64,000 bases of DNA from an uncultured Isosphaeraceae bacterium (GTDB lineage: Bacteria > Planctomycetota > Planctomycetia > Isosphaerales > Isosphaeraceae): the NCBI GenBank assembly GCA_945957605.1, contig CAMFLR010000007.1:124001-188000 (forward strand), written 5' to 3'. The position numbers and the translations under genes are program-made. Each line of letters opens with the position of its first letter. Position 1 is the stretch's first letter. This document shows positions 30,504 through 45,749 of the stretch, piece after piece. Under the pieces are notes generated by a model. That model was not told the origin of the DNA. It worked only from the letters and a program-made list of their open reading frames with translations, and made no database searches.

Positions 30504-30616
30504 GGCAACTCTCATTGAGCAAAACCTGTCACGATCGTGCGGAAGACAAGAACGAGTTTCCATCAGACCGATTCACATTGTCGTGAGCAAGCACAAAGTG
30601 CGGAATGACCAAAAAG

Positions 30617-30649
30617 AAAAGACCCCCGAGTAAAACTCAGGGGTCTTTC
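30617..30649 (-). terminator. Terminator of the YTV-like gene
   Basis: The stem GAAAGACCCC..GAG with CTC.GGGGTCTTT (one bulged base) and loop TTTTA is followed on the minus strand by TCTTTTTGG. It lies about 30 bases downstream of the YTV-like gene stop. Confidence 0.8.
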
Positions 30650-30679
30650 GTTTGGAACGCGAATTCCGCGAAGAGCCAA

Positions 30680-31813
30680 TTAGCTCTGTGGCGAGGCCTG
30701 GCCCGAGGCGACCTGGCTCGTCGGCGCGGCGGCCGGAACCCAAACGGTCTGCGTGCAGGCAACCTGGCGCGTCACCTGGCGAGGAACGCAACGGGTGACG
30801 TTGACGGGAACCTGTTCCTGAACCATCACCGGCACCTTGCGCGTGCAAGTTTCGGTGACTTGCCGGCACTTCATCTGGTAGATGGTCACGGGAACCTGCT
30901 CGGTCACGGTGTGCGGCACCTGGCGGGTGCAGGTCTGCGCCACAACCTTCGGCGTCACCACGCACTCGTAAACGGTGCGCTGCTGCGGCACCATTTCGCA
31001 GGTCGTCACGGGAACCTGAATGTTCTTCTGTTCCGGGACCATCCGGGTAACCTGCACGGGCACCTGGCGGGTCTGGCGTTCGGGAACGCACAGGACGCTC
31101 TGCACCGGCACCTGGCGAGTCTTCGTGACGGGCACCTGGCGGGCGACGTTAACCGTCCGCACAACCTGGCGCGGCACGCGAACCGTGCTTTGGGCACTCG
31201 CGGCGGCACCCTGGCCGCTCGGCGCGGGGGCGTCTTCCCAAACCGTTTCGCAAACCTGGCGCGACTCGTTCACGGTTTCGCATTCGGTATAGCACTCGGT
31301 GCGATAGCTCGTCTGCGGAACCTGCTTCATCACGGTGTAGCACTGCGTCTGCATCACCGTGTCGACGACCGGCTTGCAAACCGTCACCACGCGATCCTGC
31401 ATCACGGTCTTCGGCTGGGGCACCATCACCGTCACCGTCTTCGGCACGCGGGTGTACTCGCACACCGTCCGGTTCACAGTGAACGTTTCGGTGGTGAATT
31501 CGGTGCGGCAGCGAGTCTGCGTGACGGTCACAGGTACGCGATCGACCACCGTACGAGTCGCCGGCACCTGTTCGGTCTTCCAGTCGGTCCGGCAACGGTT
31601 CTGCATCACGGTTTCGGTAACACGATCAAACACCGTGTCGACGACCGTTTTGTAGGTCGTCACCTGCTGCGGCACAAGCGCCGGGGCACATGCCGGTGTG
31701 GGGGCCGGGCAGGTCGGCTTGTGACACACATGGCAGGCTTCGGCGCTAACCGCCCAGCCCATACCCAGCGACGCAATTGCCGCACCAATCATGAAACGCT
31801 GTACACTACGCAT
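30680..31813 (-). CDS. Secreted Val/Thr/Cys-rich repeat protein (YTV-like)
   Basis: The 377-residue protein has a signal peptide (1-24, VSA-EA). Almost the whole mature part is degenerate repeats of about 14-20 residues with phrases such as VPVTVTQTRC, RQVPVTKTRQVPV, RVPRQVVRTV and KVPVMVQEQVPV. Cysteines recur about once per repeat. An Ala/Gly/Ser linker near 190-205 splits it in two. The pattern matches the planctomycete YTV family, thought to be secreted envelope proteins, possibly disulfide-crosslinked. A short Cys-rich segment (CHVCHKPTC) follows the signal peptide. GAGGAAAACGG lies before the ATG. The repeats leave long open frames on the other strand, which are artefacts. Confidence 0.8.
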   Translation of the reverse strand: MRSVQRFMIGAAIASLGMGWAVSAEACHVCHKPTCPAPTPACAPALVPQQVTTYKTVVDTVFDRVTETVMQNRCRTDWKTEQVPATRTVVDRVPVTVTQTRCRTEFTTETFTVNRTVCEYTRVPKTVTVMVPQPKTVMQDRVVTVCKPVVDTVMQTQCYTVMKQVPQTSYRTECYTECETVNESRQVCETVWEDAPAPSGQGAAASAQSTVRVPRQVVRTVNVARQVPVTKTRQVPVQSVLCVPERQTRQVPVQVTRMVPEQKNIQVPVTTCEMVPQQRTVYECVVTPKVVAQTCTRQVPHTVTEQVPVTIYQMKCRQVTETCTRKVPVMVQEQVPVNVTRCVPRQVTRQVACTQTVWVPAAAPTSQVASGQASPQS

Positions 31814-31887
31814 GGCGATCCGTTTTCCTCAACGAGGTCCATCAAGAGAGTGGGTCTACCTCTAATGGGTGCGACCGTAACCGACCT

Positions 31888-31915
31888 AGCATACGCGTTA
31901 AACTCGGCGCATCAA
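31888..31915 (-). promoter_or_regulatory. Candidate promoter of the YTV-like gene
   Basis: Minus-strand TTGATG (31910-31915) and TATGCT (31888-31893) are spaced by 16 bases. They lie about 75 bases before the ATG of the YTV-like gene. The -10 is imperfect. Confidence 0.35.
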
Positions 31916-32026
31916 TCCCTTCATCCCCAAATCTCCTAATCAGACATCCGGGAACGGCCGGTATTTTCTTCGCCAACGCAAGAAGTTACGTCATTCTACC
32001 TAAACTGTGACTTGAAATGACCGGCG

Positions 32027-34798: not shown

Positions 34799-36451
34799 TC
34801 ATGGAGTCAAAACAGAACTTGTTCCAGATCGTTGGTTGTTCGGATTGGCGTTCTCATTTCCCGACAATGGCTTCGAGTCCGCCGGCAGTTTTCCGTGCGG
34901 AAGGCGAACTCGGTCGGTAACTTTCACGAAGTCGAGTGGACGTTCGGAGAAGGAATAGTAACTCTCTTCAGGCAACATCGGCGATTTCGTACCGAAGAGT
35001 ATGTTAAAAACAGCGCGAAACGTGTTCACGGGAGTAATCGTCTGATTCAGGCCGTCGTATCGGTGTCCCGGAATATAGTAAGCATTAAGAATGCTCATGC
35101 GTTCGTGGTGATCGGTCGCGTCGACGTTCATGACGTCAAAATGCAATCCCGAGCCGTGGTCGGATTGAAGCATGATGACCGGCGGTTTGGCCGAGTTAGC
35201 GAGAATCTCGTCAATCACCTTGTCGACTCGGCTGATCAGATACGCGGCCTGCGCACGATAGCCCTTAACATAGGTTGCCTCGTCGCCGTAGTACCGGAGA
35301 TAAATATCGCCATCGCTCTGGCGATAGGGAATCTGGTGCGGACTAACGTCCTCGCCGTTCTCGCCGAAGACAAACGGCGGGTGAGGAGACACCATGTGTG
35401 CGAAAACAAACTTCGGCCCCGGCATTTTTGCCACGAGCGGCAGCTTGCTCAGCGTGAAATTGGTCCGCATCCGAAAGGCGGAATACTCGTCGCCCTGCTC
35501 CTGGCTGGCGAAGAATCGCAAGACCGAATTCGACACGATCAGACGATGAAATTCGCTTGAGTACGAGTAGGGTGAGAGGTAGAGATCAACCGCCGGTTGG
35601 TCCGTAGGGTCGTAGCCGGTCGAAAACGTGATGAGACGGTATCCCAGCGGTTTCAAAGACTTGTACGCTGCATTATTTGTGAAATAGCCGGGAGTAATCT
35701 GCTCCCACGCGCCTCCCGTTTCTTGTCGCCGGTGATAGACGCCATTGAGCGACGAAGATAGAGAGAGCATCGTCCCGCAATAGTTTGAAGTGCTCTCACG
35801 GGCGATATAAAAACCGCGTTTCTCAAGGCTCTTGAGAAACGGTTCGAGGTCGTAATTGAAGTTTTCCTTGAGCACATCTGCGCGAGCAAAGGCGTCGAGA
35901 ATGATGTAGTAAATGTCGGGGCGATCGTCGGTCTGGGGAAGTTCGGCGATCGCTGGAGGCGACGGCGCGTTTTCCGACGTCGTCAATTTCGGTTTGCTTT
36001 GGGCGAGAGTGATCAAAGGAAGAGTGACCAGAATCATCGAAAACAGGTTGAGAAAAGACGTCATTCGTTTGCGATCGGGGATTGCTCGCTCTAGGAAATA
36101 TCCCGCGGTGAAGTAGAGCGCGACTCCTGGAATGCACGCCCAAACACTTTCGCCCGACGGTGTGTATCGGACCCAAAAGGAAGTAATATAAATGATGATT
36201 TCTGTCGCAATTCCCGGCAGATAGTCAATCGTGTAAAAGGTGATGATCGCGACGAGAGTCCAGTAACCCGCGCGATCCGGGTCTTTGAACAGAAATCGGT
36301 GGATCAGCCAGACCAAGGTGACCACCGCCAAAACGATGAGCGACGGTAAGACAACTTCGCTTGCGGCAACCTCTTGAGCATTACGAGCGTAAAGCGAAAA
36401 CAGCGGGGCCAATGCAAAAAAGAAGGGGAAAATCACAGGCTTTTCGCTCAT
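34799..36451 (-). CDS. Membrane protein with sulfatase/alkaline-phosphatase-fold domain
   Basis: The 550-residue protein has about five transmembrane helices in the first 170 residues and then an extracytoplasmic domain. That domain opens DIYYIILDAFARADVL, has a STSNYCGTMLSLSSSLNGVYH segment, FVFAHMVSPHPPFVF and MLQSDHGSGL, the metal-binding pattern of the sulfatase/phosphoglycerol-transferase superfamily. By analogy with LTA-synthase and EptA-type enzymes it may transfer phosphoglycerol or phosphoethanolamine, or release or add a group on surface glycans. The exact nucleophile is uncertain. The ATG at 36451 is chosen for GGAG upstream and because it begins the first membrane helix. It lies 600 bases downstream of the sulfotransferase operon on the same strand. 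Confidence 0.8.
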   Translation of the reverse strand: MSEKPVIFPFFFALAPLFSLYARNAQEVAASEVVLPSLIVLAVVTLVWLIHRFLFKDPDRAGYWTLVAIITFYTIDYLPGIATEIIIYITSFWVRYTPSGESVWACIPGVALYFTAGYFLERAIPDRKRMTSFLNLFSMILVTLPLITLAQSKPKLTTSENAPSPPAIAELPQTDDRPDIYYIILDAFARADVLKENFNYDLEPFLKSLEKRGFYIARESTSNYCGTMLSLSSSLNGVYHRRQETGGAWEQITPGYFTNNAAYKSLKPLGYRLITFSTGYDPTDQPAVDLYLSPYSYSSEFHRLIVSNSVLRFFASQEQGDEYSAFRMRTNFTLSKLPLVAKMPGPKFVFAHMVSPHPPFVFGENGEDVSPHQIPYRQSDGDIYLRYYGDEATYVKGYRAQAAYLISRVDKVIDEILANSAKPPVIMLQSDHGSGLHFDVMNVDATDHHERMSILNAYYIPGHRYDGLNQTITPVNTFRAVFNILFGTKSPMLPEESYYSFSERPLDFVKVTDRVRLPHGKLPADSKPLSGNENANPNNQRSGTSSVLTP

Positions 36452-37054
36452 CGTTGCTCGCTCCGCTCCATACCATTCCGCGAACCATGCAGTCGCGTTT
36501 ATCGAACCAAAAAGCGACGAAACTCGAAGCGATTCTGAAACGCCATCAGACGCCACGCTGGGATTGGTCGTAACTCCGTCCCAGGGCGCACGCCGACCCA
36601 GGTACCCGAGCGGGTATCTCTACGCGTCGGTTTGACGGTTAAACCCTGACGGCCAATGGCCCCAATGCATTCATGCCTTGGATGTCGCATGAATTCGGGA
36701 TCATAATTCTGAATTGGCGTCAAAACTGATCGGCTTGGCCCAAGTCTTCTCGTCTAGATTCCCGAGCGGCGTCTTTGAATGAACGTTAAGCATAACCCGT
36801 GATCGAGTTGTGGCATCGCGGTTGTTGCGAACGCGTTGCGTGGCTGGGGCTTCACGTGATTATTTCACGCTACAGGTAGCTCGGCAGAAAGACGCCTGTA
36901 CCCATTCGGGCTTCACGAATGGGAGAGCTTCGTCCGTGCTCTCGAGTGGGACCGAGCCGAGCTTTGTATGCGGACATAGCGCAGCGAACACCTCTCTCAA
37001 TAGAAGAGGTGCTTAGTAATGTGTATGTCTTTGCGTACTGCGATTCGTCGGCAG
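36452..37054. other. Gene-free region with dense inverted repeats
   Basis: These 603 bases separate the sulfotransferase gene and the membrane sulfatase-fold gene, both on the minus strand. No frame of believable coding character is present. A hairpin ATTCATGC/GCATGAAT lies near 36669-36694. The right part, 36855-37011, is exceptionally rich in exact stems and is listed separately. Confidence 0.6.
36855..37011. ncRNA. Candidate structured RNA with pseudoknot topology
   Basis: Perfect helices read on the plus strand are: CGTGA/TCACG (855-859 and 865-869, counted from 36000), TACAGG/CCTGTA (871-876 and 895-900), AGCTCGGC/GCCGAGCT (878-885 and 956-963), CCCATTCG/CGAATGGG (901-908 and 916-923), AGAGC/GCTCT (924-928 and 938-942), TGCG/CGCA (969-972 and 980-983), and CACCTCT/AGAGGTG (989-995 and 37005-37011). 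The second and third helices cross, giving a pseudoknot or two mutually exclusive folds. The third helix encloses two hairpins that abut with no gap. No known RNA family is recognised. Either strand could be transcribed. It is not coding. Confidence 0.45.
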
Positions 37055-37981
37055 TTACGCGATGATTGATTTGTAGTCAAACACGTCAAGATATTGCCAG
37101 GCGCGGTCGCGAACGGCCGCTTGTTCTTCGGCCGAAAGTTCGCGAGCCGTGGCGAGGTTTTGCTCGGGAGTCGCACGCCGAATCGTGCCCCAGGGATAGA
37201 TTTCTTCGAGCGGTGTACCATTCCACGATGGAGTGCGGAGCGAGTCAGCAGCTTCGAGACCCAGTGATTCGCAAAGCTTGCCAAGTGTCTGGAAAGGGTC
37301 GCGCATGACGTCTTCGACTCGAATAATGTGCATCCGGTCGGGGAATTTCTGCTTCGCCAGCAGCGCGTGGTACTGGTTAAGTGTCCAGCCCCCCAGATAG
37401 TGGCTCAGCGAGAGAGGCACGGGCCGCTTTTTCGTGTCGGCATAAGCAGACCAGGGATTGCGAACGATGTGCAAGAAGTGCGCAGTGGGTAGTTCGGTCA
37501 GGATCGCCTGAGCATCGACGGCCAGGATCGGGCTGTAACCAACGTAAACCGATTCCCGCCCGGTGCGTCTGTAGTCTTTCCACGCATCAAAGGTGGCGCG
37601 AAAAAAGGCGTTTACATTCTTGGCCCGTGATCGGCCTGAGGCCTGAATGAAACCTTCGTAAAGCTTGCAACGTTCGTCGTCGGAGAAGTCAAAAGGCGAG
37701 TTGCGAAACTTGCTGACCGCCGGCGTCCGGGCGCGCACTTTGCATTCTTCGTCGATGATCGCCTTGTAATCCTGGTAAGGAGTGGCGTCGAGGGCGAAGA
37801 CGGGCCAGCGGTACTTCACAGGGAAGAAGGACGAAAGTTCGTCGATGACCAGCCGCGTGCCGAGTTGCGACTCGAACGGGTAAACGAACATCTGGGGATG
37901 CCCGTCGAAGAACCGATGCGTGGTGTTGCCACCGTTCTCGTACATCGCACCGATCATCAGAAGCCGGCTGTCATCGCTCAT
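37055..37981 (-). CDS. Sulfotransferase
   Basis: The 308-residue soluble protein has a PAPS-binding 5' loop GAMYENGGNTTHRFF (11-25, a variant of the SGTT loop) and the 3'-phosphate loop HIVRNPWSAY (171-180). The middle helices carry DAWKDYRRTGRES. Such enzymes transfer sulfate from PAPS to sugars or lipids in the cytoplasm. The ATG at 37981 overlaps the preceding TGA (ATGA), so translation is coupled to the TIGR03032 gene. It closes the polysaccharide operon and suggests the surface sugar is sulfated. The acceptor is unknown. Confidence 0.85.
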   Translation of the reverse strand: MSDDSRLLMIGAMYENGGNTTHRFFDGHPQMFVYPFESQLGTRLVIDELSSFFPVKYRWPVFALDATPYQDYKAIIDEECKVRARTPAVSKFRNSPFDFSDDERCKLYEGFIQASGRSRAKNVNAFFRATFDAWKDYRRTGRESVYVGYSPILAVDAQAILTELPTAHFLHIVRNPWSAYADTKKRPVPLSLSHYLGGWTLNQYHALLAKQKFPDRMHIIRVEDVMRDPFQTLGKLCESLGLEAADSLRTPSWNGTPLEEIYPWGTIRRATPEQNLATARELSAEEQAAVRDRAWQYLDVFDYKSIIA

Positions 37982-39186
37982 GAATTTTTCGCCGTCGTGA
38001 ATGCGTAGAACAATTGTTTGGTGCGTGTTGGCCGCTTCCGATTAGCGAGCCAGGGAAAGCCACTTGTGATGGCTTGCGGAAGCCAGTCGATCGCGAAAAT
38101 CTGATTTCCCCACGGCCAGATCATGCTGCCTCGCACTTTTCCCGTCTTCATGTCGATCGCATGCAGTCCGCAGACGCTCGAATCGACATCCAGTCCGGGC
38201 GCGTACGAACGAAAACGCGGCAAAACCCGGGACGTGCCAACGAAGGCGAAATCGCCGTGGAACGAAAGCCCTCGCGTCCAGCCCGGCAGTTTGACAACCA
38301 GTTCGTAGCGGTCATCGCGAATCAGCCCGACTTCGCCATACCCACTATTATCAACCCAGACCACGCCCTGATTCAAGCGTGCTGAGTGAGGCCTGGTCAA
38401 CCCGCCTGCAACCGGCTCGCGCGTCTTTCCTGAGAAGATGACTCCCGTGCGATCGACGGGAAACTTGAGGTGTCCCGGTCGATAACGCGTGATTCGATCA
38501 GCCGAGGCTGAAAAAAACGATCCCGCCAGGTCTGATCCAGCCGCGATTGAATTGAGCTGAAGATGATTTCGACCAAAGATGGGACCATCCGCCTGCTCGA
38601 TGCACCTGGGCCACCAAACCCGCGATGCGCCGCCCAGTTCATCGAAGCGTACGATGGAGTTTTCGCCAACCGCGTTGCCATGAAGCGCGTCGCCGATGAG
38701 AGCCAGGTCATGAAGGTAGAGACAGCCCGGGAAAAACCGCGAGCGTATCGGAACAAGATCGCCGGCGACGTCGGGTTCGGGCATGTCGAGCCGATTCCGG
38801 AATCCCGATATCGGCGCAAGGTCGAACACCTGATTCGGATTACGACTCGAGGCGATATGCACGATATTTCGCTTGCGATCCGCAACCAAACCCGAGGGAT
38901 GGGGCAATGTCATGTAGGAGATGCGTCGCGTCGATCCGTCGGCGTTCAAAGCCAAAACGAGATGCTCGTATTCTCGTGTGATGAGAAGAGTCGCTTTTGA
39001 CTCGGCAACGACACTCCACCAGTCGCCCTTAACCCGATACTCAAACAGACGCGGATCGATATCTCCAGCCTCTCCCCACTGTGCCACGACCTGGGCCTGG
39101 TCTCTCCATTCGTGGTGATGCTGGCTCGCGAAGGCTTCGCGTTGCTGCTCGCGATCGGCGTTTTTATCGCGCTTGGATTCGCTCAC
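37978..39186 (-). CDS. TIGR03032/DUF4915 family protein
   Basis: The 402-residue soluble protein resembles the TIGR03032 (DUF4915) family of conserved hypotheticals, by its repeated propeller-like strands and phrases such as GRNHLQLNSI, GLTRPHSAR, VWVDNSGYGEVG and LPGWTRGLSF. The function is unknown. GTG at 39186 overlaps the TGA of the upstream GT2 (GTGA), with GAG just upstream, and the next gene overlaps by ATGA. The longer frame to 39324 overlaps the GT2 gene and is rejected. Its place between a glycosyltransferase and a sulfotransferase suggests a role in glycan assembly or modification. Confidence 0.8.
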   Translation of the reverse strand: MSESKRDKNADREQQREAFASQHHHEWRDQAQVVAQWGEAGDIDPRLFEYRVKGDWWSVVAESKATLLITREYEHLVLALNADGSTRRISYMTLPHPSGLVADRKRNIVHIASSRNPNQVFDLAPISGFRNRLDMPEPDVAGDLVPIRSRFFPGCLYLHDLALIGDALHGNAVGENSIVRFDELGGASRVWWPRCIEQADGPIFGRNHLQLNSIAAGSDLAGSFFSASADRITRYRPGHLKFPVDRTGVIFSGKTREPVAGGLTRPHSARLNQGVVWVDNSGYGEVGLIRDDRYELVVKLPGWTRGLSFHGDFAFVGTSRVLPRFRSYAPGLDVDSSVCGLHAIDMKTGKVRGSMIWPWGNQIFAIDWLPQAITSGFPWLANRKRPTRTKQLFYAFTTAKNS

Positions 39187-39854
39187 GCGTCTCGTTGTCT
39201 CCACATGCGGAACGCCCCGGAATAGAGTTTCCAGGCCGTTTTCAATCGCGTGGTTGACTCTCCACCATGTCGCGGCTGCGAAGGAAGTGCGAACTCCTGG
39301 ACGGGATAACCCTCGCGGCGGCAAATCGACATGAATTCCAGGTCGATCAAATCGTCACCGCGCGATAGTGCGAGCAACCTGGAGAATTGACGAGGAAAGA
39401 TCTTGGGAGTTCCATTGACGTCGCGGCTCGAAATGCCAAACAAGACCCGACTCTCCCAATTGTAGAGCGTCGAACCTAGTCTCCGTAGCGGAGTACGCGC
39501 CGTTCGCCTGGCCTTCGTAACCCTCTCGGGTTCGAGGAGCGCAGCCAAAACGAGAAGTGCAAGTTGATCGGCCGGAGTTCGTGCTGAGTTGGTGTAGGCC
39601 AGCAAATCTCCCCTGGCTTCACGCAACCCTAGCTTGACCGCCAACCCCCAACCGCCTGCCGCACTATTGATGGCACGCACCGACGCATATCGATTTTCCA
39701 GCGCCGCGCAAATCGCAGGAGAATCGTCACGGCAGCCATTTGTGACAAGCAGCAGTTCGTGTGGACATGCGATTCGCGCGAGGGCCGATTCGTAACCCGC
39801 GACAACCGCCTCAATATGATCGGCCTGGTTGTAGACGGGAAGGACGATTGACAC
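39183..39854 (-). CDS. GT2-family glycosyltransferase
   Basis: The 223-residue protein starts SIVLPVYNQADHIEAVV, the classic GT-A N-terminus, with LLVTNGCRDDSP as the substitute for VDDGSxD and LLAYTNSART where a DxD would be expected (no Asp pair). It lacks transmembrane segments. It is shorter than many GT2 enzymes and the metal motif is weak, so activity is uncertain. The start is GTG at 39854, 54 bases after the epimerase-GT2 stop; an in-frame CTG lies just upstream. The 3' end overlaps the TIGR03032 gene by GTGA. Confidence 0.8.
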   Translation of the reverse strand: MSIVLPVYNQADHIEAVVAGYESALARIACPHELLLVTNGCRDDSPAICAALENRYASVRAINSAAGGWGLAVKLGLREARGDLLAYTNSARTPADQLALLVLAALLEPERVTKARRTARTPLRRLGSTLYNWESRVLFGISSRDVNGTPKIFPRQFSRLLALSRGDDLIDLEFMSICRREGYPVQEFALPSQPRHGGESTTRLKTAWKLYSGAFRMWRQRDA

Positions 39855-39908
39855 CAGGTCGCCCGAATGTGGCGAGTTTTCCGAGGAGGACGATGAACCG
39901 CTGATGCG

Positions 39909-41894
39909 TTAGCCCTCCCCGGAGATCAAGTCGGCGGCGGCGGGACGAATCTCGCCGTCTCGAATGAAGGTTCGGCGAATGAAGTGAGGTCGACGCTTGA
40001 CCTCCTCGAAAACCCGGCCCACGTATTCACCCACAAGCCCGATTGCAAAGGCATTCACTGCGCCGAAGAAAAGCACGACGAGCAGGACCGTGGTAATACC
40101 CGAAACGGATCGCTCCGGATAAAGAATGCGCACTACAAACTGGGCCAGACCGAGGAAAACTGAAAGAATCAGCAGGCCAAACCCTGACAGGCTCAGGATT
40201 GTAAGTGGCGTGTTGCTGAACGACAAGAGATTGTGCTTCGCCCGGCGCAGCCTCTGCCGAAGCCGATTACGGCGTTTGGGAGCAACTCGGCTCGCGGATT
40301 GATAAGGCACACCCGTCTGTTTGAAACCAGCGAAGGCGCGCACGCCCGGCAAGAAGAGGTCGCGCTCCGGGAAATGCAGTAAAGCGCGGACGACCTGCCG
40401 GTCCATCAAGCAGAATTCACCAGCATCGTGGGGAATCGAAACGTACGAAAATACGTCGAACACTTTGTGTAAAAAGCGTCGCGCTAGCGCCAGGCCCATA
40501 GGAAGCGGGTCGAGGCCGCGCGTGCCATAAACAACGTCATACCCGTCGCGCCAGCACGCGACAAACTGCTCGATCAGTTCCGGCGGTTCGCTGAGACCGG
40601 TGGTGAGCAGTACGCACGAGTTCTTCGTTGCGACTTCCATCCCGCTCCGAAATGCCGCTTGCTTACCAAACCCGCGCGAATGGCAAATCCCCAACACACG
40701 CCGATCATTCCGCGAAAGTTTGCGAATGACTTCGGCAACTGCGGGCGCCTCTCCCTCGTCGACAAAAATGATCTCGTGGTCGATGTTCAGCTTGCCGAAA
40801 ACGGCTTTGACTCGGTCGTAGGTCTCGGTAAGACCGCTCCCATCGTCGACGCACGCCACCACCGCGCTTACACTATGTCGCGTATCAAGCCCGTAGAGCT
40901 TGGAGCTCTTCTGGTAAGCGTCCTTGTCCGGAAGCGCGCGATACCACTCCGCCGTCCGAGTCAGCCCGTCGCGAATCGCAATTTTCGGCTGCCAGCCGAG
41001 TCGGTTGTGAGCCCGGTCGATGTTGGCATACCAATCGGTAACGTCCCAGCCTCGGGCGGGCATTGTAAACCGAGCCGGCTCGTCGATACCGAAGAGGTCA
41101 CGAGAAATCTCCGCGAGATCGCCGATCGTCGTTTTGATACCCGTGCCAATGTTGAACGAACTGCCGTAATCGTCTTCCCTAAGATTGAGAGCGGCGTCGA
41201 TAAAGGCTTCACACGCGTCGTCGACATAAAGAAAATCGCGCGAAACTTGAGGGTTGACGAACTCGGGGTATTTTCCCTCGACACCATGTCGGACCAGATT
41301 GGGAATGAGTCGCGACGAATCTTCCAGCGGACCATAAACCGAATAGAGCCGAAGGTTGACGCAAGGCAACTTGTGCTTTCGCCCGTGGTAGTGCAACAAA
41401 TTTGCGACGGCGACCTTGGAAACAGCATACGGACTATTCGGCGCGGGCAATGCATCCTCGACCGGCCCGGCCGCGTTGTCACCATATTCCGATGAACTTC
41501 CCGCATGGACGTAACAAGCGAGCGTCGACTTATCCAACCGGTCGATGACACGCGTGGCTAGGTTAAAGTTGGTTTGATAGATCAACGCGCTGTCAGTTTC
41601 GAATGAATAGGCGCCATAGGCAACGCAATCGAAGATGGTTCGAGGCTTGGTCGATTGCAGCACCTGATCGAGATGCGAGTCGATTAGCAAGTCGCCGACC
41701 AGGATCGACTGGCTCGGCAAGCCCTTGAGACGCCAGGCGGGAAGGCGAGTCGTTGTGCCGTAAACATCGGCACGTTCCGCAAGAAGGGCACGAAAAAGCG
41801 CAGCACCGACGAACCCGCTGGCACCCGTGACAAGGATCGGTCCGTGTAGCCGTTTAATTTTCTGCCCAAGTGTGGATTCTTCGCTAGGAGACAC
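39909..41894 (-). CDS. Fusion of NAD-dependent sugar epimerase/dehydratase and membrane GT2
   Basis: The 661-residue protein has an extended SDR at about 17-320 with the Rossmann loop TGASGFVG (23-30), SSSEYG and the catalytic YAVSK. A linker leads to a GT2 domain at about 345-560 and two transmembrane helices near 575-640, as in DPM1/GtrB polyprenyl-phosphate sugar synthases. In the GT2 part the usual VDDGS reads VDEGE and the DADLQDPPE motif reads TTGLSEPPE, so the DxD aspartates are absent. The fusion suggests that a nucleotide sugar is modified and passed on at the membrane. The start is GTG at 41894 with TGAGG six bases upstream; a TTG at 41906 is the alternative. Confidence 0.85.
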   Translation of the reverse strand: MSPSEESTLGQKIKRLHGPILVTGASGFVGAALFRALLAERADVYGTTTRLPAWRLKGLPSQSILVGDLLIDSHLDQVLQSTKPRTIFDCVAYGAYSFETDSALIYQTNFNLATRVIDRLDKSTLACYVHAGSSSEYGDNAAGPVEDALPAPNSPYAVSKVAVANLLHYHGRKHKLPCVNLRLYSVYGPLEDSSRLIPNLVRHGVEGKYPEFVNPQVSRDFLYVDDACEAFIDAALNLREDDYGSSFNIGTGIKTTIGDLAEISRDLFGIDEPARFTMPARGWDVTDWYANIDRAHNRLGWQPKIAIRDGLTRTAEWYRALPDKDAYQKSSKLYGLDTRHSVSAVVACVDDGSGLTETYDRVKAVFGKLNIDHEIIFVDEGEAPAVAEVIRKLSRNDRRVLGICHSRGFGKQAAFRSGMEVATKNSCVLLTTGLSEPPELIEQFVACWRDGYDVVYGTRGLDPLPMGLALARRFLHKVFDVFSYVSIPHDAGEFCLMDRQVVRALLHFPERDLFLPGVRAFAGFKQTGVPYQSASRVAPKRRNRLRQRLRRAKHNLLSFSNTPLTILSLSGFGLLILSVFLGLAQFVVRILYPERSVSGITTVLLVVLFFGAVNAFAIGLVGEYVGRVFEEVKRRPHFIRRTFIRDGEIRPAAADLISGEG

Positions 41895-41924
41895 GCGCGG
41901 CCTCAACGGAGAGAATTTGGTTGA

Positions 41925-42830
41925 TCAATACCGGCGTTGCAATTCCGTAAGGACCGATTCCGCGTCAAGTCCGCACTCGCGACGATGGAACTGCTGTGAC
42001 CCGTAGCGACCGCTGACGTATCCGAGCGCGGTTCGATGAACGAACCGGCGGGGCGATTTCTCGCGAGCAAGGAAATAAAGCGCAAGCGACGAGCCAACAC
42101 TACCGGCCGCGACGTGTTCTTCAACCACCATCAAAGAGTCGCATCGGTTGACATCGGTCAGAAATTCCGGCGGTGGATCGGGGAAAGGAAGCTCGCTCAG
42201 TACCCAGATATTGGGGCGCACGCTCGGTTCGAGGTCGAGCGCTGCTCCAAGAATCGGACCTACCAAGGGCCCTGCGACGAGCAAACACGGTCCATCTCCC
42301 TGCAAGAGACGACGCCAGGGGGCATACGCCGGGACATTAAATTTAGCAGGGCGTTCAGAAAGTCCTAGCCGCAAATACGCAGGATGCGTTTCAGTGAATA
42401 AGTGTGCAACGATCGGCTGCACATCGTCACTAAATGCCGGAATGAACACTTTAAGATTTGGTAGTGTGAGCAATGCACCATAATCGCCGATGGCATGGTG
42501 TGTGCCGCCCATCACGCCATAGCCATAGCCGCCGCCGTTGCCAACCAGCACAACCGGCAGGTCGTGCATGCAAACGTCGTTGCGAATTTGCTCGAACGGC
42601 CTGGCGTAAATGAAAGGGGCGATGCTGTAAGCCCAGGGCCGCATTCCCGCTTTCGCGAGACCAGCGGCCACACCTACCATATTCTGTTCGGCCACGCCCG
42701 CGTTGATGAAACGAGGACCAAGCGCGTCGCGCAGCGGCTCGAGCGCCATGAAGCCCAGGTCGCCCGTCAAAAAAACAAAATCGGCGCGGCCGGCCTCGGC
42801 TATGAGCGACTCGCGGAAGACGGTTCGCAC
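41925..42830 (-). CDS. Transketolase C-terminal half (pyrimidine-binding subunit)
   Basis: The 301-residue protein corresponds to the pyrimidine and C-terminal domains of transketolase: FLTGDLGFMALEPLRDALGPRFINAGVAEQNMVGVAAGLA with the catalytic Glu in AEQN, and a GGYGYGVMGGTHHAIGDYGAL segment. The frame overlaps the N-terminal half by 31 bases, so the two subunits are translated together. Split transketolases in glycan clusters often make branched or unusual sugars by transferring a two-carbon unit. The start is ATG 42830. Confidence 0.88.
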   Translation of the reverse strand: MRTVFRESLIAEAGRADFVFLTGDLGFMALEPLRDALGPRFINAGVAEQNMVGVAAGLAKAGMRPWAYSIAPFIYARPFEQIRNDVCMHDLPVVLVGNGGGYGYGVMGGTHHAIGDYGALLTLPNLKVFIPAFSDDVQPIVAHLFTETHPAYLRLGLSERPAKFNVPAYAPWRRLLQGDGPCLLVAGPLVGPILGAALDLEPSVRPNIWVLSELPFPDPPPEFLTDVNRCDSLMVVEEHVAAGSVGSSLALYFLAREKSPRRFVHRTALGYVSGRYGSQQFHRRECGLDAESVLTELQRRY

Positions 42831-43600
42831 GACCGCTCAACCTCCCGGACAGCTTGGTGGTACTGCTCTTCTGTCATCGGGAGATAGTGCCATTCAAGGC
42901 GATCTTCCATGAACGACACGCCACACCCTTTTACGGTCCGAGCGATGACCACGCCTCCCTGACGCTGAAGCACGTGACAAAGCGCGTCGTGATCGTGTCC
43001 CTCGATTTCCGCCACATCGAAACCGTACCCCGCGAACTTGGCTGCGAGCGGTTCGAGGTTGAAAACTTCGGACGTCCGGCCGAACCCTTGCAAGCCATTC
43101 GCATCGACAATGATTAACAAGTTATCGAGCTTTTGCGCGGCGACAAATGCCAGCGCTTCCCAGCAAGACCCTTCGTTCCATTCGCCGTCCGATGTGAGGC
43201 AAACCACGCGGCCTGCTTCGCCCTTTAATTTCTTGCTTAGCGCGATCCCGGCCGAGAGCGAAAGTCCGTGCCCCAAGCTACCCGTCGCAAACGGAATGGT
43301 CGGAATGCCGGCCGGCGGGGGATGGCCGCTCAAAAGCGTATCGTCTTTATGGAACTGGCGGAGATCGTCGTCTGACAGTAATCCAAGCGTAAAAAGCGTA
43401 ACATAGAGGGCGCCGGCCGCGTGACCTTTTGAAAGAACAAATACGTCTTCTTGTTTTAAACTTCTATGATATGCGCACAGCAAAATGTCGAGAGCCGAAA
43501 GGTTTCCGCCGAGATGCCCGACCCTGCTCTCAAAATGCATCCGGAGCAGCCGCACCCGGGCGTCGCTCACCAGCAATGAGAAGGATCGATCGTCAGTCAT
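42800..43600 (-). CDS. Transketolase N-terminal half (TPP-binding subunit)
   Basis: The 266-residue protein has SKGH (57-60), the TGSLGHGLS motif (106-114) and the TPP/magnesium motif SDGEWNEGSCWEA (137-149), with NGLQGFG after it. It binds thiamine diphosphate and works with the downstream half. ATG at 43600 with GGAAGC upstream. It starts 115 bases after the membrane-protein stop on the same strand. Nearest functional analogues are transketolase-like enzymes of surface-sugar pathways, not the central-metabolism enzyme, which is a single chain. Confidence 0.88.
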   Translation of the reverse strand: MTDDRSFSLLVSDARVRLLRMHFESRVGHLGGNLSALDILLCAYHRSLKQEDVFVLSKGHAAGALYVTLFTLGLLSDDDLRQFHKDDTLLSGHPPPAGIPTIPFATGSLGHGLSLSAGIALSKKLKGEAGRVVCLTSDGEWNEGSCWEALAFVAAQKLDNLLIIVDANGLQGFGRTSEVFNLEPLAAKFAGYGFDVAEIEGHDHDALCHVLQRQGGVVIARTVKGCGVSFMEDRLEWHYLPMTEEQYHQAVREVERSCEPSSASRS

Positions 43601-43715
43601 TCAACAGCTTCCGTCGAATAGCAAGCTTACCAAGCAATCATCGCATTGCATTATGGCAGCGCGAATGCTGCCTCGCGAGCCAGCATCGGAATTTTCCCGG
43701 ATTGGAACAGGCCTA

Positions 43716-45470
43716 TCAAGGAACGAGGAGCGTGATGGCGTCGATCTTGAATTCGCACTTCTGATTATCAGGCTGAATGCGGAACTCATAGACATCATCG
43801 TCAATCCACACCGTCGTTTCCTTGCCATCACCGGTGGGCATGTACCAATTGGAGTACAGTTGAGCATCGGTGTATTCGCGCTGTCCAGGACGCCTCCAGC
43901 CCAGTTTGAATCGAGCCGGAGCCCCTTGTTTGTTCGAGTGCGAGTAACGGATACGAATGCCCGCGACTGGCCTGGGCTCGGGTAAACGAAACGTGATCTG
44001 GGGATCGACGTTCTCGACGTGCGCCGTACCATTTTCCCAGCGCACGAACTGAAGGGAACTGGGCTCAACCGGTACGGGGATCTGCTTCAACACAGGATCT
44101 TCCCTGAGGTACTGAAACGGACCGACCTTCTTTTCGCGGAGCTTGGGCAAGAGCTCAGTCAGATAGTCATGACTCGGAAGCAAAAACGGCGTGTACCGGG
44201 CGGCAATTCGAAAGGGGGGCTGGCCCGATCGAATATCGCGAATCAACGCCTCATTTCGGGTGGCGGCATCACGCGCCTGGTCGAGACCGCCCATTGCATT
44301 GGGCCAGGCGATCACCAAGAGAACGGCCGCGAGCACGTTTGGCAAGAAGTAACGCGCAATCGGCGGCCCATACAAACGAAGCCCGAGCGCGATCCAGCAC
44401 CAAAGCGGAACGGCGATCGTGACGTAGCGATCCTGAAACCCCGCCATTTCGCCAGCCCAGCCGCGTCCCCAGGCCACCGCCGCCGCCAGGCCAAGCGGCG
44501 CGGTCAAGAACGCCAGGAACCCAAGCACTCGAGGTCGCTCACCCGGCAGTGCGGCGTAAGATCGTCCCAGCCAAACCAAGGTCATTGCCACCAGGATGAT
44601 CGTGAACGCACCCACCCACGGCCAAAACTGCGCTGCGGTCATTCCCAAGCCTCCGCTCAGGAATTGCACTCCAGCTCTTGCACTTTCAAGTAACCTGTGT
44701 TCAGTCTCCGGATGGATTCCCTTCTGGAAATTGCGGAAGTACAGAACCGTCGCCAGCAGGCCCGGCATTGACGAAGCGACAATGATTGCCGCGTTGATGC
44801 GACGCTTTGTTTCCGTCGAACGCAATTCGCTCCAGGCTCGCGCGGAAAGCCAAAACGCCAGGCCCGGAACATACATCAAGCCAGTCCCACCGCAGTGAGG
44901 CAGCAAGGCCATCGCAATCGCGACGAAAACCGTTTCAGTCAAAGGAGGCCACTCGGGCCGTCGCGCGATGGGAATCAAGCACGCGAGCCCAAGACTCGTC
45001 CCCAACACGTGCGAAAGCATACTGGCCCATAGCACATCGCCAGCGTGCCCAAGGTGAAGCAAAAGTAGCGGGAAAATGATGTCGGATAAGCGAAGGCCGC
45101 CTGGAAGTCGGGACGAAAGGCGAATTAACGCGGCAGCGAGCGCCGAAAGGAGTGCGAGGTCGATATACATCCCCGCGCGGACGTCGTTTCCGGAGAGATG
45201 TTCCGAGACAACCAGAATGAACTTCGATAGACCAATTCGATGCTCGTTATGCTGAGCCCAAAGCCAATCCAGGGTGACCGGCGTAACTCCTATCACGTAG
45301 TCCACAAGTGCATAGTCGTCGCCGCGAGGCACATTGGCTGAATACTTGGCGACAATCGCCAGCAAAGCGACCGTGAGAATCAACCAGACGCCCCACACAA
45401 ACATCTTGCAACCGGGCTCGGACGGCTCCGGGCCAGGGGCCTGCGCTGAATGTCCCAGGCTTCGGGGCAT
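43716..45470 (-). CDS. Polytopic membrane protein, possible GT-C glycosyltransferase
   Basis: The 584-residue protein has about ten transmembrane helices from residue 25 to 390 and a soluble beta-rich C-terminal domain (about 440-584). After the first helix an acidic pair occurs in PRGDDYALVDY, the position of the catalytic acids in GT-C enzymes, and H-N-E-H-R follows (WAQHNEHRIG). The family is not recognised with certainty. The C-terminal part resembles a carbohydrate-binding jelly roll. The ATG at 45470 has GGAG seven bases upstream; an in-frame TTG lies at 45485. It is the first gene of the polysaccharide operon. Confidence 0.72.
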   Translation of the reverse strand: MPRSLGHSAQAPGPEPSEPGCKMFVWGVWLILTVALLAIVAKYSANVPRGDDYALVDYVIGVTPVTLDWLWAQHNEHRIGLSKFILVVSEHLSGNDVRAGMYIDLALLSALAAALIRLSSRLPGGLRLSDIIFPLLLLHLGHAGDVLWASMLSHVLGTSLGLACLIPIARRPEWPPLTETVFVAIAMALLPHCGGTGLMYVPGLAFWLSARAWSELRSTETKRRINAAIIVASSMPGLLATVLYFRNFQKGIHPETEHRLLESARAGVQFLSGGLGMTAAQFWPWVGAFTIILVAMTLVWLGRSYAALPGERPRVLGFLAFLTAPLGLAAAVAWGRGWAGEMAGFQDRYVTIAVPLWCWIALGLRLYGPPIARYFLPNVLAAVLLVIAWPNAMGGLDQARDAATRNEALIRDIRSGQPPFRIAARYTPFLLPSHDYLTELLPKLREKKVGPFQYLREDPVLKQIPVPVEPSSLQFVRWENGTAHVENVDPQITFRLPEPRPVAGIRIRYSHSNKQGAPARFKLGWRRPGQREYTDAQLYSNWYMPTGDGKETTVWIDDDVYEFRIQPDNQKCEFKIDAITLLVP

Positions 45471-45749
45471 CCCAGGTCTCCGCAAATCGAAAACGCCGCA
45501 ACAACAATACGGACAGAACAGCGACTAGTTTGTCGGTTTCGCGCCGTGGTTGCAATCAGGAGACACCACCACATCATCTGAAGAGACTTGGAGTGTGTCT
45601 GTGAATTTCCTAAAGCAATGAAAAACCGTTCAACATGCTTCATTGTCCGATTTGAATATGGACGCAAGCTCTCTCATCGCCGCGATTTTCGACAGCGAAA
45701 CGGTCAAAAACCGATGAAGTCGTTGGCGTGCTTGGTTGCGACGTCAGGA

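Follow-up and report, generated by a model that had tools for sequence, protein, structure and literature searches.

We analysed seven minus-strand genes in a 64,000-nucleotide stretch of the genome of an uncultured Isosphaeraceae bacterium (contig CAMFLR010000007.1; hereafter the window, in which positions are counted from its first letter). They include both halves of a split transketolase (TK), and we read them as a widespread surface-glycan cassette in a form particular to this lineage, which would build a TK-modified, branched or chain-extended sugar (probability roughly 0.55). An earlier note had described these seven genes as an operon for a branched, sulfated surface sugar. All seven were confirmed, over positions 37055-45485, as follows:

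37055-37981, minus strand: ST-like gene, probable sulfotransferase-fold protein with YENGGNTT replacing the PRSGTT loop (PF13469, 47 bits)
37978-39186, minus strand: DUF4915/TIGR03032 protein of a divergent subfamily (PF16261, 165 bits)
39183-39854, minus strand: small soluble protein with the fold of glycosyltransferase family 2 (GT2) (PF00535, 38 bits)
39909-41906, minus strand: SDR::GtrB fusion, i.e. an NAD epimerase/ketoreductase-type short-chain dehydrogenase/reductase (SDR) joined to a GtrB/PgfS-like GT2 domain (PF01370, 151 bits; PF00535, 38 bits)
41925-42830, minus strand: TKC, C-terminal half of the split TK (PF02779, 77 bits)
42800-43600, minus strand: TKN, N-terminal half of the split TK, binding thiamine diphosphate (ThDP) (PF00456, 80 bits)
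43716-45485, minus strand: polytopic membrane protein, only loosely attached to the cluster (without a match in Pfam or NCBIfam)

Gene content and conservation of the operon

The grouping of these genes into one operon was supported. Their tight packing holds for three junctions, with exact overlaps of ATGA between the ST-like and DUF4915 genes (37981/37978), GTGA between the DUF4915 and GT2 genes (39186/39183) and 31 bases between TKC and TKN (42830/42800); at the other three, the genes stand 54, 18 and 115 bases apart, and the widest of these gaps, upstream of TKN, has a promoter-like match at chance level only. The TIGR03032 label was likewise retained in part: membership of PF16261 is clear, and the score against TIGR03032 itself (93 bits) is far under the 251-bit cut-off.

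Gene order in other Planctomycetota, a check set beforehand, was compared between the window genome (G000) and a relatives' set of 99 genomes. The order of the six genes from TKN to the ST-like gene is identical in G030, a member of the same family, at 70-86 % identity (75 % for the GtrB domain and 78 % for the SDR domain of the fusion). It is implied in another Isosphaeraceae genome, G025, where the six genes lie over two contigs whose ends overlap exactly, by 126 bases of the fusion gene. In G016, the cassette (i.e. TKN-TKC-SDR::GtrB) and the trio (i.e. GT2-DUF4915-ST) are both present on separate contigs, the trio (L150) standing behind an unrelated reading frame; linkage of trio to cassette was not seen in this genome. 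Other arrangements are GT2-DUF4915-ST-TKN-TKC-SDR::GtrB on an Armatimonadota contig (L115), TKN-TKC-GT2-DUF4915-ST without the fusion gene in G222, and an ST homologue (50-57 %) together with SDR and split TK in G076 and G005.

Counted at E <= 1e-15, the ST subfamily occurs in six genomes of the relatives' set, the window's own included, with no further matches. A glycan-type split TK is present in 6/6 of them and, with G222 and L115 added, in 8/8. The divergent full-length DUF4915 subfamily was found among the 99 relatives only in G000, G030, G016 and G025, i.e. in the bearers of both cassette and trio; canonical members of the DUF4915 family have mixed gene neighbours.

The membrane protein is the weakest member of the cluster, because it has no family match and its G030 homologue (53 % identical) is split from TKN by a 2.3 kb gene on the opposite strand. 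Its first loop carries DDY and HNEHR motifs, which we take to suggest a GT-C enzyme; the transmembrane part of its structural model is of low confidence. The model as a whole has a mean confidence (pLDDT) of 45, and fold claims were dropped for all but the C-terminal domain, which is predicted to resemble a carbohydrate-binding module (CBM)-like beta-sandwich (residues ~467-589, similar to CBM6/35/86).

The split transketolase and its cassette

The nearest solved structures for both TK chains are those of the metabolic split TK of Carboxydothermus (TKN with the 6yak N-chain, E 4e-50; TKC with 6yaj, E 1.2e-29). Since a full-length housekeeping TK is encoded separately (G000:C1:955780, 35 % identical to the split pair), the pair comes on top of central metabolism. 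In an alignment of cassette members to Escherichia coli TktA, the equivalents of H26, H66, H100, D155, N185, E411 and H473 are invariant (78/78), and the sole exception among alignable catalytic, ThDP and Mg residues is Gly154, which is Ser in the cassette family (His261 and Arg358 fall in alignment gaps and lie outside this comparison). The acceptor site is altered. The position of His461, which contacts phosphate in TktA, is occupied by Gly in all 78 members, window included, and that of Asp469 by Met in 75 (among them the window) and by Gln in 3. By contrast, metabolic-type split TKs in L052, L055 and L056 retain the equivalents of both residues, as the 6yaj chain retains a GEDG motif with the Asp469 equivalent; both are absent from split TKs in other glycan-type clusters. 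These substitutions would fit an acceptor other than an ordinary aldose phosphate, and the assignment of the split TK to surface-glycan modules is supported. G030 also has a second pair (L045:6716-8409), in which three motifs are lost, SKGH and SDG/N from TKN and GVAEQN from TKC; it is a degenerate and perhaps non-catalytic TK-like pair.

A TKN profile search yielded 80 named homologous loci from Planctomycetota, Acidobacteriota, Myxococcota, Pseudomonadota, Actinomycetota (Mycobacterium), Armatimonadota, Verrucomicrobiota and others. The order TKN-TKC-SDR is found in 73/80, and in 67 a single reading frame holds both SDR and GtrB; several of the remaining loci are broken off at contig ends. 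The start of TKC lies at a median of -4 bases from the TKN stop. Methyltransferases of two families (38 and 22 loci) are found nearby, as are GtrA (13 loci) and polytopic proteins 500-800 residues long; among the neighbours there is no recurrent nucleotidyltransferase family by which a new sugar phosphate could be activated. The cassette tree intermingles phyla and would agree with movement of the cassette from one lineage to another. In Mycobacterium, including M. asiaticum (L064, L072, L073), a methyltransferase gene adjoins the cassette. A plasmid search gave one match only, an unannotated Methylobacterium record (L159): the M. aquaticum plasmid pMaq22A_1p, typed as mobilizable, which carries TKC and SDR::GtrB genes at 809811-812629.

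In the literature searched (openly licensed PMC papers only), we found neither a description matching the cassette, nor one of the seven-gene arrangement, whose parts are ordinary, nor a mention of DUF4915/TIGR03032. The unfamiliar combination pointed out in the earlier note comes down to the multi-phylum TKN-TKC-SDR::GtrB unit rather than the seven-gene set. This unit is widespread and apparently undescribed, and its probable role is to extend a surface sugar of the cell by two carbons. One of its closest likenesses is with three-component GtrA/GtrB/GT-C glycosylation, with which it shares a GtrB/PgfS-like polyprenyl-phosphate sugar transferase, GtrA and polytopic proteins adjoining many of the loci. 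It differs in the fusion of GtrB to an SDR and in the split TK placed ahead; in the window, moreover, GtrB has lost its DxD motif and no GtrA was found beside it.

Active-site changes in the fusion and the accessory trio

The SDR domain of the window has the GASGFVG (GxxGxxG) and YAVSK (YxxxK) motifs. It lacks the catalytic Asp-Glu that follows Thr in dehydratases, with SSSEYG in this place (GSSSEYG or GTSSEYG across the family), and is therefore of the epimerase or reductase type. The GT2 domain of the fusion matches GtrB of known structure (PDB, sll0501; E 1e-44) and scores 178 bits against PgfS NF047588, under the equivalog cut-off of 500; membrane helices lie at its C-terminal end.

The GtrB DxD motif (DGDLQDPP type) is kept in 62/62 fusions without the trio, whereas one or both Asp are lost in 5/5 fusions with it. 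The replacements differ: TTG in the window (TTGLSEPP), TAS in L058, GAN in L057, SGS in L130/L151 and DGG in L115. About three changes on the tree are needed to account for these losses, and an independent-pairs test offers too few pairs (2-3) for significance; a Fisher test of the same association takes no account of relatedness. In the alignment of the small GT2, the conserved motifs TNxART and V(T/P/S)N stand where DxD and VDDGS would be expected; the protein is possibly a metal-independent transferase and possibly has a non-catalytic role. The trio may have replaced the GtrB function. The sugar transfer proposed in the earlier note keeps its two GT2 domains and is weakened by the loss, in both, of the DxD metal/nucleotide motif.

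Proposed pathway and alternatives

In the reading that we favour, TKN and TKC would form a single ThDP enzyme moving a two-carbon ketol unit. This unit would probably be taken up by a nucleotide-activated sugar at a keto group, and the resulting branched or chain-extended product would then be reduced or epimerised by the fused SDR. Ancestrally, the GtrB domain of the fusion would load the sugar on polyprenyl phosphate, for it to be flipped and then transferred by a GT-C enzyme. In the window lineage, where GtrB is DxD-less, transfer and modification probably fell to the GT2, DUF4915 and sulfotransferase-fold proteins. A bolder form, in which the cassette builds a TK-branched sugar on a polyprenyl carrier across phyla, and trio lineages repeatedly lost the GtrB site because the trio would carry out transfer and modification by non-canonical chemistry (i.e. 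a metal-independent TNxART GT2 and an ST-fold enzyme without the standard loop for 3'-phosphoadenosine 5'-phosphosulfate, PAPS), is put forward tentatively.

Two-carbon transfer to a keto-sugar is our best guess for the split TK and draws on several likenesses. Related planctomycete split TKs are found in two other clusters, L044 and L046. In L044, genes for glucose-1-phosphate cytidylyltransferase (RfbF), CDP-glucose 4,6-dehydratase (RfbG) and RfbH score above cut-offs, as do RfbF and RfbH in L046; both clusters (L044:3625-11551 and L046:2652-11254) combine split TK and CDP-sugar genes with a PgfS-like GT2 and aminotransferase-fold genes. Such enzymes make CDP-4-keto-3,6-dideoxyhexose, for which the gene set is complete or nearly so here, and the two clusters are possibly yersiniose-like branched-sugar clusters with TK in the place of YerE. 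In yersiniose biosynthesis, YerE, a ThDP enzyme, puts a two-carbon unit on this CDP-activated keto-sugar (PMC12247030). The reaction resembles the two-carbon transfer to a keto-sugar proposed here for the split TK, although YerE is of the decarboxylase class and the window enzyme is a TK. Split TKs were also proposed as keto-sugar branching enzymes in miharamycin and amipurimycin, with no in vitro test according to a 2025 review (PMC12247030); these are Streptomyces nucleoside antibiotics rather than surface glycans, likened to our case by description and not by sequence. In the wps-2 cluster of Actinoplanes missouriensis, genes for TK N- and C-halves lie inside an exopolysaccharide cluster, as here (PMC13390465). 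That cluster is of the Wzx/Wzy type with aminotransferases, its deletion gave no phenotype, and the part of the source available to us mentions no SDR::GtrB fusion (PMC13390465).

Several observations weigh against the proposed pathway. No nucleotidyltransferase or dehydratase is encoded within the operon, and the SDR, as it lacks the dehydratase Asp-Glu, leaves the keto group without an evident source. The DxD loss in GtrB blurs the final transfer step in this organism. Neither RfbF nor RfbH was found above cut-off in the window genome; its acceptor is therefore probably not the CDP-sugar of those enzymes, and a CDP-dideoxyhexose was rejected for this organism.

The intact catalytic residues would equally suffice for ordinary TK chemistry, by which the split TK would make or remodel an unbranched sugar phosphate precursor (i.e. 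a longer ketose or aldose phosphate), later activated and polymerised. We hold this to be a minor possibility, given that the His461 and Asp469 substitutions are family-wide and unlike metabolic split TKs, and that no activating nucleotidyltransferase family recurs beside the cassette. As for the sulfated branched sugar of the earlier note, in which a PAPS-dependent sulfotransferase would act on the TK-derived sugar, the ST-like protein is indeed a sulfotransferase relative: it matches PF13469 (profile positions 91-215 only) and retains the Arg of the 3'-phosphate site. Genes for adenosine 5'-phosphosulfate (APS) kinase are present in the genome, and the subfamily always occurs in genomes with a glycan-type split TK. 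Its canonical phosphosulfate loop is missing, however: no K/R-S-G-T is found, YENGGNTT is invariant at this site in eight homologues, and the residue eight positions beyond the Arg, usually Ser, is Asp, whereas several other sulfotransferase matches in the same genome have PRSGT/S loops (L001-L003, L007/L008), paralogues with PRSGTT among them. Top Foldseek matches of the AlphaFold model were sulfotransferases; at a pLDDT of 46, the fold claim from this model was dropped. Sulfate transfer by this putative enzyme is thus doubtful, and the sulfated product as a whole unlikely.

The missing DxD motifs and P-loop could also mean that the GtrB domain, the small GT2 and the ST-like protein are dead scaffolds in a decaying remnant of the cassette. 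We give this explanation little credence: all reading frames are intact, identity to G030 is high throughout (membrane protein excepted), the GtrB domain is about as conserved there as the SDR domain, and the motifs that stand in for the lost ones, ENGGNTT and TNxART, show conservation across phyla.

Further loci were observed besides the operon. About 500 bases downstream of it, on the same strand, 34799-36556 encodes a membrane protein, one domain of which matches the sulfatase family weakly (PF00884, 25.8 bits). Elsewhere in the genome (G000:C19:3358-17014), an APS kinase gene and one for a canonical PRSGTT sulfotransferase lie close together, and another sulfotransferase match is ~11 kb away; this sulfation locus is more conventional than the window operon. 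In the window, a repetitive minus-strand gene of 377 codons (30680-31813) has an open frame of 444 codons (30605-31939) antisense to it on the plus strand.

Overall, the operon appears to be a version of GtrA/GtrB/GT-C-type surface glycosylation, for which a branched sugar is plausible and sulfation doubtful. Two features seen in the alignments set it apart, i.e. a TK acceptor site unlike that of metabolic enzymes and the coincidence of the trio with the loss of the GtrB active site. This exact coincidence leads us to expect a replacement of function, and it points to variant GT2 and sulfotransferase active sites that are conserved and apparently undescribed. Two-carbon branching by TKs has been proposed from gene clusters and never tested in vitro, according to the 2025 review (PMC12247030); with a small, well-conserved three-gene cassette present in such cultured or named bacteria as Achromobacter, Rhizobium, Dyella and Mycobacterium asiaticum, it is open to direct testing.

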